From contig JAFWNG010000046.1 of NCBI GenBank assembly GCA_017510405.1, forward strand, positions 1 through 33,332: a DNA stretch of 33,332 bases, given 5' to 3'. Numbering within the stretch: position 1 is the stretch's first letter; each line of letters starts with the position of its first letter. This document shows, one piece after another, positions 9,680 to 32,559 of the stretch. The notes below the pieces were generated by a model. It was not told the origin of the DNA. It ran no database searches and worked only from the letters and a program-made list of their open reading frames with translations. Both the position numbers and the translations under genes were made by a program. This DNA is from Solobacterium sp. (lineage in GTDB: Bacteria; Bacillota_I; Bacilli_A; Erysipelotrichales; Erysipelotrichaceae).

Positions 9680-10053
9680 CGCTGTATTCCTTATAGGAAA
9701 GCGTAGACGTCTCAGTCTGGATCCAGGACCGCAGACAACGACAACGGGTTTCAATTCCTTATAGGAAAGCGTGGACTATCGTCGTAGCTCGTCATAGCAA
9801 GAATACAGGTGGTCATGTTTCAATTCCTTATAGGAAAGCGTGGACGTGCCGATAAAGCCCACCTGCACTTCCTTAAAGATCATAGGTTTCAATTCCTTAT
9901 AGGAAAGCGTGGACTCGGCGTGAACGATATACACCTTCTGACGGACGATCACGTTTCAATTCCTTATAGGAAAGCGTGGACCTTCTTAAGAGATCACGCA
10001 TACTGGGAAAGAGCATATGCGCTCGTTTCAATTCCTTATAGGAAAGCGTGGAC
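9680..10053 (-). CRISPR. CRISPR array: 6 repeats, 5 spacers, no cas genes in the window
   Basis: Five identical 29-nt repeats lie at 9748-9776, 9817-9845, 9886-9914, 9953-9981 and 10025-10053. A degenerate copy (six mismatches, five in its first six bases as written on the plus strand) is at 9680-9708. Spacers are 39, 40, 40, 38 and 43 nt and all differ. On the minus strand the repeat begins GTCCACGC and ends ATTGAAAC, the end that becomes the 8-nt 5' handle in many type I and III systems, and it holds a short hairpin TTCCT-ATA-AGGAA. Both this end and the decayed leftmost copy say that transcription runs leftward with the leader on the right. No cas gene is present anywhere in this window, so the array relies on distant cas genes or is orphan. 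The subtype cannot be fixed from the repeat alone. Confidence 0.97.
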
Positions 10054-10410
10054 TAAGGTAAAAAGCTTACCTTTGAGACCAGTATATCATAATGAGTTAA
10101 GGAAAAGAATCGAATACCTAATGAAAAATCTCCCGATCTCCGCATCATGAAACTATTTACAAATGCGTCAAAATGCCTATAAATAAGCACTTTTTAGATA
10201 ATGACAAAGATAACTGAAGTGGCGTTGGAAACATCGGGAGAAAAAACGGCTCAAAACCAGCAGGAAAACGGGCAAAAAATCTCCCGATCCCAACATAATT
10301 GCAAATAATGAGAAATTCATCAGAATGTAAGCATCTTACATTTTATATGAATGAATAGAGATTGCTGAGAGAAAACGTGTTTGTCCGGGAAAGCATAAGG
10401 AATCAGTAAT
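10054..10410 (-). promoter_or_regulatory. CRISPR leader region
   Basis: About 360 bp, AT-rich and without genes. Reading leftward it ends in TGATATACT (10089-10081), an extended -10 that would start RNA about 20 nt before the first repeat. A hairpin AAGGTAA-AAAGC-TTACCTT (10055-10073) touches the first repeat. A 15-bp direct repeat, AAAAATCTCCCGATC, occurs at 10124-10138 and 10275-10289, with a partial inverted copy ATCGGGAGA at 10233-10241. These repeats may be leader motifs used in spacer integration or binding sites; that part is inference. Confidence 0.6.
10124..10289. repeat. 15-bp direct repeat pair in the CRISPR leader
   Basis: AAAAATCTCCCGATC at 10124-10138 and again at 10275-10289, 151 bp apart, with a 9-bp inverted core copy (ATCGGGAGA) at 10233-10241. 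Confidence 0.8.
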
Positions 10411-10414
10411 AGAA

Positions 10415-10462
10415 AGAAAAAACTTCTGTATATTCATCATTGTCGGAGATGAAATACAGAAG
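10415..10462 (-). terminator. Terminator of the LysR-oxidoreductase operon
   Basis: On the minus strand CTTCTGTA...TACAGAAG, extended by TTCATC/GATGAA inside, is followed by six T. It starts 12 bases after the stop codon at 10474. Confidence 0.85.
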
Positions 10463-10473
10463 ATTCCTGCTGG

Positions 10474-16818: not shown

Positions 16819-18054
16819 TTATCGGTCGGATGAGTGTACCTGAAGGTACAGCGGGTCTTCGTATGTATCGTAGCGGCGGTCGATCACTGCCCTGTGTCCT
16901 TTGCGGAAGATGCAGATCTTGTCGACCGGCATTTCCAGGACTTCCTTGACCGGAAGATCGATACGCTTACTGACGGATACGGCGGTGTCGTAGTCCATTG
17001 TCGACATGCTGATGTACGTATCACAGTTATTGATGATCGTACGGGCAGCCTGTTCGCCGTACATGTTGTTCAGCTGTGTTTCCGACTGCAGCAGCAGGAC
17101 ACAGCTTACGCCGCATTCACGGAAGATGGAGATGTACTCATCAAAGTGCGGGATGACGCTGCCGGTGGCGAAGTCATCGCAGCACATGCGCACTTTGCGC
17201 GGCAGACGCTGGTCTTCGGTTTCCTGCGCGTATTCCAGCAGCTCTTTGAAAGCAGCGGACCAGAACAGGTTGATATAGCGGTAGGAAGACATGTTGACGG
17301 GGGAAGCCAGGATAAACAGCACGCTCTTTTCTTCGGCAAACTTGCGGAAGTCGATCGACGGCATGTCCGCGATCATGCGGCGGCAGTTCTCGCTGAACAT
17401 CTGTTCCAGCGGCGCGGCAAGCGATGAGTAGACACAGGAGCCGGTGCGGTACGGAAGACAACTGTAGATATGCCACTTGCGGACGGCGAAGCTTTCCGGT
17501 GCCAGCTTGGCGAGTCTCTCCATTTCGCTGTCGAGGTCGGTGCGGATGGAGTAGGAATCCTCACGCGGTGCAGCCTTCTCATACAGCTTCAGGACATCGT
17601 ACATCGTCGCGTTCTCATTCAGCATCAATGCAATTCCGATCAGCGCGCACAGCAGGGTGACAGCACTTTCGTCCCAGTACGGATCCATGCGGGAATTGGT
17701 CTTTTTTTCGGAGTTGCACATGACGATATTATGGGCAAGGTTCTGAATGTCGTCTTCACTGCAGATGTAGTGGACCGGGTCGAAACAGACATTTCCCCTG
17801 TCGGGATCCTGCGTGTTCAGGTAATAGACGTGATAGCCGCGCTCTTCGAGCATCCGGCCGTATTCTCTGGCAAGACGCTGCTTTGTCAGGCTGATGATGG
17901 CATTGGAATCGAAGGTGCCGTGCAGAAGCAGCGGTTCCATGACGGAAACTGTCTTGCCGGCGCCGGTTCCGCCTGTGACCAGGATATTTCCGTTAAGGCC
18001 GGTTTCTGTTTCCGGTGTGAAGGTGGTACTTCGTCCGAGTGGGATATTTTCCAT
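16819..18054 (-). CDS. Stand-alone VirD4/TraG-like ATPase
   Basis: 411 residues of the type IV coupling-protein (TraG/TraD/VirD4) ATPase family. Walker A is GGTGAGKT at 28-35. Family stretches include DPYWDESAVTLLCALIG, and the Walker B region VRMCCDDFATGSVIPHFDEY uses an Asp-Asp in place of the usual Asp-Glu, followed by CGVSCVLLLQSETQLNNMYG and IINNCDTYISM. True coupling proteins have one or two N-terminal membrane helices; here the protein starts just 27 residues before Walker A, so it should be soluble. AGGAGG 7 nt before the ATG at 18054 fixes the start. No relaxase, VirB4 or other conjugation gene is near; neighbours are rpoE and an LTA-synthase-like gene. It may be a relic of an integrated element or a domesticated DNA/protein translocase. 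Confidence 0.87.
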   Translation of the reverse strand: MENIPLGRSTTFTPETETGLNGNILVTGGTGAGKTVSVMEPLLLHGTFDSNAIISLTKQRLAREYGRMLEERGYHVYYLNTQDPDRGNVCFDPVHYICSEDDIQNLAHNIVMCNSEKKTNSRMDPYWDESAVTLLCALIGIALMLNENATMYDVLKLYEKAAPREDSYSIRTDLDSEMERLAKLAPESFAVRKWHIYSCLPYRTGSCVYSSLAAPLEQMFSENCRRMIADMPSIDFRKFAEEKSVLFILASPVNMSSYRYINLFWSAAFKELLEYAQETEDQRLPRKVRMCCDDFATGSVIPHFDEYISIFRECGVSCVLLLQSETQLNNMYGEQAARTIINNCDTYISMSTMDYDTAVSVSKRIDLPVKEVLEMPVDKICIFRKGHRAVIDRRYDTYEDPLYLQVHSSDR

Positions 18055-18079
18055 TGCTTGACCTCCTTTTGGCATACCA

Positions 18080-18085
18080 AGTATA
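18080..18085 (-). promoter_or_regulatory. -10 box of the VirD4-like gene
   Basis: TATACT, 25 nt before the ATG at 18054, downstream of the preceding gene's terminator. It suggests independent transcription; the -35 is not clear. Confidence 0.4.
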
Positions 18086-18119
18086 GCGGTCAGAGCAGGA
18101 AAGACAGGCAAGGGGATAC

Positions 18120-28713: not shown

Positions 28714-28833
28714 ATAAGTTTCTCCACAGTTATCATTGTACCGAAAAAATAAACAATAATCGTATCTGAGTGCATTGCATACAGGCGCAAAAAAAATCAT
28801 AATATGGAAAAGTTTCCCGAAGGAGTGCCACCC

Positions 28834-31800
28834 ATGAGAAAGATCATTTCCCTTCTGATCGCTGTGTTTATCAGCGTTTCTTCCGCAGTCGTATGCCGAG
28901 CGGAGAATATGGCTTCTCTTGAAGCATCGCTTCTGACCGTATACGCGACATATATGGATGAAAAAGTGGAAGTCAGCCGCCAGGTCATGGAGATCGACGG
29001 CAGTCTTTCAACACCGGTCAAAGTCGAAGTCATCATGAGCGGCGACGTAACCGGATATAAATACAGCATCATTCAGTATGACGGCAAAAAGCAGACGACC
29101 ATCGCGCAGTCGACGACAACGGAATTCAATTTCTATCCGGACGACCTGAAAGTGAATACGCCGCTCTATATCTCGGTCACAGCACCGGACGGTAAAAACG
29201 CGTATACGCGCATTCTGAATTTCCGCATCAATACCGGCGCGGCAGCGGAACGGACACCGGTGGATGTCGGCGCGGAATTCGGTTCCGGTCTTTTCATCGA
29301 CCTGAGTGAGTTCGTGCCGGGCATGCAGTTCAATCTTCTGCCCATCCTGATCCCAGTCACGGCAAAATCCTATCCGGACGGACGCTATGTCGTCGGCTTC
29401 GGCGTCAATTCCTCCGATGCAAAGTTCTGGAAAAACATCGCCACCGGCAACCAGCCGGAAGATCCGGACGCGGAAGCACTGGAAGCGGCGTTTAACGGCG
29501 ACGGGGAAAAGAAATCGGCGATCTCCGGAAAACAGCTGGGCTGGACGATGATCGTCTCCGGCTATGTACAGGGAAATATGAATACGAACGAGCCTCTGCG
29601 CGGCAAGCTTTCCTTCTATGTCGGCAACGGCTTTGACGTGGTAGGACAGTATTCCATCCTGACGTGGGAGATCACACTGACCGGCGGCGTGGACGGAAAT
29701 TTCCAGTTCTCGTTCGTATTTGATGAAGCGAGCAGTAAGTATTCCTTCCAGCCGGACGCCTTCATGGTCGGCTGGAAATCCGGACTTGAAATATTCGGCG
29801 GTCTCGGACTGGCCCGTATCTTCTCGGTCGGTCTGTACGGCGCTGGTTCCTTCGCCGGAGAAAACGAATTCTATCCCCAGGCAGGCGTGGATCATCTGAT
29901 CCTGGCCGGTGAGACCGGCATCAAGGTAAAACTGCTGGGGAAGAATCTGTTTGTGTTCAAGATCGTTTCGGGATCGCATGATTTTATCAAGCATAACAAG
30001 CTCGGTGAAGCGCTTCTGCAGGAACCGTCTCCGAATTATATTTCTTCACAGCTGCTGGCAAACGACTACGCTTCGATCCCGCTGCTTTCCGATGAACCGG
30101 AAGGAGAAGCGGTATGGCATACAGGCACGATCGATCCGGATGCGGCAAACAACGCCGGAGCAGTGGCAGCGGGATATCTGAATGAAGCAGATTACGCCGC
30201 GAAGATCGCAGAAAATATTTATTCCGACAACCATATTCAGCTGGTGCGTTCCGGCTCGCAGGCAATTCAGCAGATGAACGGTGTTTTCCTGGGAAATGAT
30301 TCTTCCCGCCCGGCCGGCAACCGCTCGCGTCTGATGAATTTCTATTACAGTCTGTATGACAGTTTCCTGTCCGACCCGAAATGGATCGACGAGGATTATG
30401 CGGACGACGGAACAGCGGATTTTGAGCCGTATGTATTCCACGATGACACCGACAGCAATACCTATCTCGTATGGCGGAACGCTCTGAAGATCCTGCCGGA
30501 GAAAGCGACACTGGAAGAGATCGCGGCCGGAAGCGACATATACTTTACGGAACTCGGCACCGGTTCATCCTGGCGAAGAGGCGAGCGGATCACGGAATAC
30601 GTCGGCTCTGACAGCGAAATATTCGCGGCCGGCGCCCGTGTCGGCACCGATGAAAAAGGCGCTCCGGTCGTCAGCTGGTATACCAACAGCATCCATGACC
30701 CGGCTGGTCTGGATGAATCGTTCACCCACGAGATCTGGATCGCCCGGAAAGAAGGCGCACAGTGGGTACGTGAAAAGATCACGGAAGTGACCGGCGTCAT
30801 TACCGAAGTGTCCAATGACCGCTTCCGGGGAAGCACTGCTGTCGCCGTCAGCTATACCACAGACGGAGGAAAGGCAGTCACGGAACTCTGGCAGTACGGA
30901 AAGCAGGTCTGGACAAGGGAAAATGCCGAAGTCGCCCGGTTTATCCGTGCCGGCTACGGCCATACAAATCTTACCTGGTATGAAAAGGGAGGCCTCTGGT
31001 CGCTCTCAGATACATGGAACGAGAAGCGCATCACGCCGGAAAACCTTGCGATGCCGACATCGGATTATGATATTTACGGTAAGTTCGGCGATTCTTCCGT
31101 ACTGATCGTCGGTACATCCAATAAAGATTCCCGCGGTGATCTCTACGGTCTTCTCAGTACTGACGGCGGTCTGAAGTGGAAACGCATCAACATGAGTTCC
31201 GTAGAGGAATACTCTCAGGTCAATCATGCCGGCATTGCCTTCACATATGACGATGAACCGGTCGTTGTATACAGTGTGCAGAATTACGACATCAACTACG
31301 ATCCGGACAGCACTGACGCGGAAAAACTGCTGAAGAGCGGCAAAGTCGAGGATACGCTTCTGACCGGCGGCCGGCGTCTGCTGATCGGGGAAGAGGATGA
31401 ACGTTTCACCGATACTCAGACCGATCTCTATATCAAAGCCGGAACGGCCAACCGTCACGTTACGATCACGGCCGCAGAATTCCCGGAAGAAGAAACAGCA
31501 CTGCCGCGTCACTATACGCCGCTGACGCTCACGGTGGAAAACACCGGTCTCGTGGATGTGAGCGAGATCACGGTCCTGCAGTATGACATACCGGTAAAGA
31601 CTGTTCCGGTATCCCTGAAGCCGGGTGATCAGACGGAAATTACGATCGATGTGAATGTGACCGGCTCCGGTGCTGAAAAGGAACCGCTGAAGATCCCGGT
31701 ATCGGTATCTACACATTCCGGAAGTACACCGGACAGCCGCTATACGGCAGAACTCGGCATGGGACACCTGAGTACGCTCATCGAGCATGAATATATTGAA

Positions 31801-32559
31801 GGAACCGAGCAGATGACATATACCGTCACAAACTGGGGCTTCACCAATAAGTCCTATAAGGTCGTTGTCCGTGACGAGGAACAGGGACGCACGCTGAGTG
31901 AAGAAACTGTCGATATTCATTACGGTCAGGAACTGAGACGCAGCTATTCCAGTTCCAGCGGGCTGTTCGTAAAAGACGGAATCAAAAAACTGACGCTCTA
32001 TATCCTGTTCGGCGACGAGACCATTGAGGACGATATCCCGTCCACGCGCAAACTGACGATCGTTCCGCTGGATGAGATCTACGGACAGGATTTTAAGGCT
32101 CCAAACGAGATCGATGAACCGGAGCCGACACCAACACCAACACCCACGCCGACGCCAAAGCCGACCCCGACGCCGACTCCGACACCGACACCAAAGCCGA
32201 CGCCAACACCGGTGCCCGGACCAACCCCGACGCCAGCACCGGCTCCCAAACCGAATCCTTCCCCATCCCCCGCACCTGAACCCGGCATCGAACCGACACC
32301 GGTGCCGTCCGCAGATCCGGAAAAAGGCGGAGAAACGACGCCGAAACCGGAAGATCCGCAGAAAGACGGAGAAAAGAAAGACGGACAGGGAAACTCCGGT
32401 GAACAGGAAGGAAACCCGGAAAAGGACCCGAAGGATGTCACGAAAGAAGGAGAAAAGAATGCTTCTTCGTGGGCATGGATCCTGGCTGTTCCGTTTGCCA
32501 GTGTTGTCGGCATCATGGTCTTCTTCCTGTGGCGCAGAAGAAACGATGAAGAAGAGTAA
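28834..32559 (+). CDS. Large membrane-anchored surface protein with Pro/Thr stalk
   Basis: 1241 residues. Signal peptide ([19 protein letters not shown], likely cut after CRA), then about 870 residues of beta-rich domains with no family I can name. Repeated motifs such as [43 protein letters not shown] and [15 protein letters not shown] resemble a BNR/sialidase-like propeller. A CARDB-like domain (about 895-970: [19 protein letters not shown]) follows, then a further beta domain. A low-complexity stalk (about 1097-1170, [11 protein letters not shown] units, then Lys/Glu/Gly-rich) leads to one membrane helix (about 1213-1233) ending in WRRRNDEEE. There is no LPxTG, so it is held by the helix, not by sortase. 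GGAG lies 9 nt before the ATG at 28834. Possible adhesin or glycan-binding protein. Confidence 0.87.
32122..32340 (+). repeat. Pro/Thr-rich low-complexity coding repeat
   Basis: Repeated CCGACNCCN and CCAACNCC units encode (PT)n with Lys, Val or Ala breaks: the stalk of the surface protein. Codons vary between units, so it looks maintained as protein and not as a fresh slippage tract. Confidence 0.8.

Follow-up and report, generated by a model that had tools for sequence, protein, structure and literature searches.

A Solobacterium CRISPR array that is probably one of four dispersed arrays served by a single type III-D system

The stretch of DNA analysed here (hereafter the window; 33,332 nucleotides, an entire contig of a Solobacterium sp. 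draft genome) carries a small CRISPR array with no cas gene near it. The question that this locus raises is whether such an array is an orphan, or whether it belongs to a CRISPR system whose proteins are encoded elsewhere in the genome (assembly of 3.27 Mb in 46 contigs, 96.6% complete).

Structure and orientation of the array

The main features of the array and of the leader end next to it are as follows.

9680..10053, minus strand: CRISPR array of six 29-nt repeats and five spacers (38-43 nt), apparently read leftward
10025..10053, minus strand: first (leader-proximal) repeat
9953-9981, 9886-9914, 9817-9845 and 9748-9776, minus strand: other intact repeats
9680..9708, minus strand: terminal repeat, hairpin retained, five of the last eight nucleotides (the crRNA handle) altered
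10054..10074, minus strand: leader hairpin AAAGGTAAGCTTTTTACCTTA, seven pairs, abutting repeat 1; common to four arrays, with compensatory changes in a relative
10081..10089, minus strand: extended -10 element TGATATACT, by sequence inspection; predicted start near 10074

The coordinates and counts given for this array in the first-pass annotation are correct. The repeats start at positions 9680, 9748, 9817, 9886, 9953 and 10025, and on the minus strand five of the six are identical and read GTCCACGCTTTCCTATAAGGAATTGAAAC, the leftmost one (9680) having 6 mismatches against the others. The spacers, in the order of transcription, are 43, 38, 40, 40 and 39 nt long. The locus thus combines identical direct repeats and unique spacers of similar length with a leader at one end and a decayed repeat at the opposite end, and since five identical 29-mers at near-regular spacing rule out chance, the array is real. 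A 113-aa open frame that runs through it on the plus strand (9809-10150), in which blocks of the type FQFLIGKRG/VSIPYRKAW recur, is an artefact of the repeats. As described earlier, the array is flanked on the left by two zinc-ribbon proteins and on the right by a Gfo/Idh/MocA oxidoreductase and a LysR regulator. The earlier statement that the 33 kb contain no cas gene is borne out by both profile matches and tblastn: none of the RAMP, Cas1, Cas6 and Cas3-core matches of the genome lies on the window contig (C21), and tblastn of nine proteins of the type III-D locus described below gave no match in the window. Further, no Rfam families or tRNA genes were found in the window.

The first-pass annotation had also inferred leftward transcription, and of the signs on which it relied, the decayed repeat on the left and the extended -10 element on the right are present; the leader, too, is located on the right. 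However, the distance from the end of the -10 element to the first repeat is 27 nt and not about 20 nt; the latter figure fits instead the distance between the repeat and the predicted start, which is located ~7 nt past the -10 element. This -10 element was missed by a generic sigma-70 scan due to its lack of a -35 match. The predicted transcription start coincides with the leader hairpin, and all four arrays of this genome that carry the repeat (see below) have the same leader end, TATACT..AAAGGTAAGCTTTTTACCTTA. In the cas-adjacent array of the relative G042 this hairpin reads AGAGGCAGCACTCTGCTTCA, where three pairs are changed on both sides, one is a G-U pair and 7 of 7 pairs are kept with a single gap in the loop; this compensatory evidence comes from one divergent sequence, and the number of double changes is two when the gap is placed automatically.

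A further indication of direction is provided by the terminal repeats. The repeat folds as a five-pair hairpin upstream of AUUGAAAC, and an 8-nt segment of this type is the usual handle left by Cas6. Although decay of terminal repeats at their outer end is frequent in CRISPR arrays generally, in the terminal repeats of seven arrays 20 changes are seen at 56 handle positions versus 11 at 147 upstream positions (P = 3e-6, a value that serves only as a guide, as the seven arrays are related; the 8-nt boundary used follows the usual length of the handle). The handle of the last repeat is altered in six of these seven arrays, whereas the internal repeats show no handle-biased changes. Such a bias would arise if trimming of the last crRNA still requires the terminal hairpin, whereas the handle beyond it is dispensable, or is harmful by giving rise to an empty crRNA; it is the last repeat that yields this extraneous crRNA in class 1 systems (PMC13187072). 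Based upon the conserved leader, the hairpin at the predicted start and the loss of the handle in the terminal repeat, transcription of the array most likely proceeds leftward.

The type III-D locus and arrays with the same repeat

Genome-wide, 18 copies of the repeat (with 3 or fewer mismatches) are present, and they are distributed over four arrays. The first-pass annotation had proposed a search of the genome for cas genes and for other arrays with the same repeat, and this search led to a type III-D operon and a Cas6 gene on contig C15, together with three more mini-arrays.

C15:110040-110293: array adjoining the type III-D operon, in divergent orientation
C15:136507 onward: array
C20:77114-77349: array
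Window: array described above
C15:110738-118438: genes of the Cas10d-Cas7-Csx10-Csx19 complex
G000:C15:121961-122740: Cas6 gene

The repeat of the window array and that of the array adjoining the operon are the same letter for letter. The genes on contig C15 encode, in order, Cas10d (506 aa), a Cas7/Csm3-like protein, a Csx10-type Cas5, a second Cas7, Csx19 and a large Cas7 (TIGR03986), which are followed by a Csx1-like CARF-HEPN protein, a CARF-TIR-Csx20 protein and Cas6. The PADLOC E-values are 8e-100 for Cas10d, 2e-48 for Cas7_IIId, 7e-55 for the Csx10-type Cas5_IIId and 2e-24 for Csx19; the TIGR03986 match passes its curated cut-off, and Csx10 and Csx19 are under their NCBIfam cut-offs, yet they are the best PADLOC matches. 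With a Cas10 of the III-D family, Csx10, several Cas7 proteins and Csx19 encoded together, this locus is a type III-D CRISPR system, and all matches to the RAMP family in the genome lie within this single operon. The Cas6 assignment is based on TIGR01877 (above cut-off, E 1e-25) and PF01881 (3e-22); PF10040, also tried as a test for Cas6, gave no match, which was a false negative as TIGR01877 recovered the gene. The cyclase motif of Cas10d has the form AGDD, a variant that occurs in loci with known effectors (PMC11229360), and the protein is without a recognisable HD domain, in line with nearly all III-D systems, an HD domain being reported for 3% of III-D loci (PMC11229360). No Cas1 was found in this genome with PF01867 and TIGR00287 (draft 96.6% complete), or in G042 with TIGR00287 (draft 85% complete), the controls being positive in both cases. 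Due to this, the arrays may have stopped growing.

In a set of 272 genomes from the family, only this genome and G042, a Solobacterium relative, contain the repeat, and the same holds for the leader at a credible length. The Cas10d proteins of the two show 82% identity, and the next closest, from G057, is 46% identical. In G042 the order of the operon is as on contig C15, and three arrays are present, one beside cas10 and two remote. The shared repeat and the joint presence of arrays and operon in a relative both link the window array to the III-D operon. However, co-occurrence in two related genomes is by itself not strong evidence, and the stronger point is the co-divergence of the repeats: those of G042 differ from the repeats of the window genome by 4-6 bases, while its cas-adjacent array and two remote arrays are 0-1 base apart from each other, which indicates that the arrays and the cas locus have diverged together. 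If a single Cas6 and a single complex read all of the repeats, those at different sites would be expected to change in concert within each species.

The remote arrays of both species have in common a leader of ~300 nt, which is absent from the cas-adjacent arrays. It contains a palindrome near its outer end and three GATCGGGAGATTTTT boxes in alternating orientation, which in the window are located as follows.

10124..10138, minus strand: leader box GATCGGGAGATTTTT, promoter-proximal copy
10233..10246, plus strand: leader box, inverted copy, ATCGGGAGAAAAAA on the plus strand
10275..10289, minus strand: leader box GATCGGGAGATTTTT, distal copy
10324..10342, no strand assigned: palindrome AATGTAAGATGCTTACATT, close to where the ~300-nt leader ends on its outer side, homology extending to about 10371

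The GATCGGGAGATTTTT box is almost limited in this genome to the leaders of remote arrays. The covariation term for an RNA fold in the distal leader is close to zero, hence the boxes are more likely DNA sites, and either regulation or a trace of the copying of remote arrays could account for this part of the leader. As far as the flanks were compared, the sites of the remote arrays do not match between the two species. Near the window array (window 10413-10465) and the cas-locus array (L019:9728-9788) there is also a palindromic CTTCTGTAT...ATACAGAAG element (77% identity), and in G042 a comparable element comes after the cas-adjacent array; these probably represent a terminator family.

Probable use of the array by the type III-D system and competing explanations

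Based on the above, the window array is very probably one of four dispersed mini-arrays of one type III-D system, whose crRNAs would be used in trans, and it is most likely functional or was so until recently. The first-pass annotation had considered either an orphan array served in trans or part of a less common subtype. Service in trans and a less common subtype are both favoured by the identical repeat and hairpin at the III-D operon, but within the genome as a whole the array is no orphan; it looks like one because a contig boundary separates it from the cas genes. The geometry of the array, regarded earlier as non-standard, is so only relative to types I-C, I-E and I-F, as variable spacers of ~40 nt and a repeat ending in ATTGAAAC suit a Cas6-processed type III system. 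The same applies to spacer lengths overall (32-49 nt). The 34 spacers of both species have no 12-mer in common. The BLAST search of spacers that had been suggested yielded no credible protospacer for the window array (blastn against phages, plasmids and 70 genomes of the genus) and none for the other three arrays (blastn against phages), and eight exact spacer cores of 22-24 nt had no credible match in viral contigs; some weak phage matches (E 0.02-0.8, unrelated hosts) were read as chance.

The steps of transcription, processing, loading, targeting and signalling may be envisaged as follows. The array would be transcribed leftward from the extended -10 element at 10081-10089, with the start at the conserved hairpin, and the Cas6 encoded on contig C15 would cleave every repeat hairpin at its base, leaving the 8-nt 5' handle AUUGAAAC. 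The resulting crRNAs would then be loaded in trans into the Cas10d-Cas7-Csx10-Csx19 complex. Upon pairing of a crRNA with an invader transcript, the Cas7 subunits are predicted to cleave the RNA and Cas10 (AGDD, no recognisable HD domain) to make cyclic oligoadenylate, by which the Csx1-like CARF-HEPN and CARF-TIR-Csx20 proteins would be activated.

It could be argued that the array, although formerly part of the III-D system, is now an untranscribed or unused copy in decay. The failure to find Cas1, and hence of any renewal, the presence of only five spacers and the lack of a matching target are in keeping with such a relic. However, with five of six repeats identical, with leader, promoter and hairpin kept between the species, and with changes in the terminal repeat clustered in the handle rather than spread across it, we consider this improbable. 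It is less probable still that the array serves a different effector, i.e. a type I-B system or a class 2 nuclease that was missed in the draft. The ATTGAAAC repeat end is also present in type I-B arrays, the assembly is 96.6% complete, and the cas searches covered RAMP, Cas1, Cas6 and Cas3; but an identical repeat adjoins the III-D operon, no Cas1 was found, and in both this genome and G042 no Cas3 match exceeds the TIGR01587 cut-off, for which reason a type I-B assignment was rejected.

The long leader raises the question of whether the remote arrays arose by copying of a leader-array module that is mobile or duplicates, and that would have its own role in regulation. The presence of this leader in all remote arrays and its absence from those next to cas genes, together with the lack of corresponding sites in the two species, would fit such copying. 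However, neither a transposase nor a target-site duplication nor defined ends could be identified, and the distal leader shows no covariation, and while this explanation is unlikely, it would be compatible with use of the arrays by the III-D system. On a similarly speculative level, a dedicated leader module of ~300 nt (palindrome, three GATCGGGAGATTTTT boxes, promoter and 5' hairpin) might have been copied to new sites, so that a III-D system without its own Cas1 spreads its spacer memory over several loci under separate regulation; the leader hairpin would then protect or order the pre-crRNA.

The reading that we favour, of dispersed arrays served by one III-D system, agrees with what is known of this subtype. 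The gene content is the same, including CARF effectors and a Cas10 in which a cyclase motif is present but an HD domain is not recognisable; the differences are that no adaptation genes were found here, and that the memory is held in four small arrays, three of which are remote and have the longer leader. The distance of III-D arrays from the cas locus is very variable (PMC12814883), and thus the remote placement is an ordinary and already known arrangement. As in Flavobacterium columnare, where a VI-B array uses the Cas1 of a II-C system (PMC8092290), an array would work with proteins encoded elsewhere in the genome; however, that case concerns adaptation across types, whereas in the present one a single system with the same repeat would carry out processing and interference. 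Hairpins of the leader beside the first repeat are also found in Cas13 systems, where they block extraneous crRNA (PMC13187072), but the hairpin described here lies wholly inside the leader and is unpaired with the repeat.

An apparent orphan array thereby becomes part of a defined system, and contig boundaries are seen to make false orphans. Further, the two Solobacterium-like genomes, in which a III-D system without detectable Cas1 keeps several small arrays, provide a case for studying the upkeep, expression and remote processing of such arrays. The leader hairpin and the decay of terminal repeats specifically in the handle lead to testable predictions on processing by Cas6 in trans, and these two features, the leader module and the CARF-TIR-Csx20 effector are modestly interesting in addition.

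Other observations

Elsewhere in the window, a 1251-aa protein (28804-32559, plus strand) begins like a signal sequence, contains a long stretch rich in proline and threonine, and has a membrane anchor at its C-terminus, with no Pfam match. A TraG/VirD4-type coupling protein is encoded at 16819-18111 on the minus strand (T4SS-DNA_transf 1.7e-34), and among the few window proteins scanned no further conjugation genes were recognised.

In G057, a genome of the same genus (L074, L075, L098, L101, L104), there are two III-D Cas10 genes (about 42-46% identity). The genome also has four Cas1 matches, of which three lie in open frames of 644-702 aa and may be fusions such as RT-Cas1. One of its Cas10 contigs bears an array with a different repeat.

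The fused effector is found beside the III-D operon at L041:4346-5995 (G000:C15:120346-121995) and at L110:19573-21231. It comprises a CARF-like N-terminus (weak matches), TIR_2 (1.4e-12) and Csx20 (1.1e-28), the last being a ring-nuclease family (PMC12409355). An AlphaFold2 model made with no alignment had a pLDDT of 37 and was discarded. Judged by its domains, the protein, if active, would be an NADase carrying its own ring nuclease. It resembles the TIR-CARF NADase Cat1 (PMC12162218) in having a TIR domain and a CARF-like region, and it also adjoins a type III operon; however, its order is CARF-TIR with a C-terminal Csx20, whereas Cat1 is without detectable ring-nuclease activity (PMC12162218). 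Fusions of this kind would be overlooked by a survey of ring nucleases restricted to proteins of 250 aa or less.
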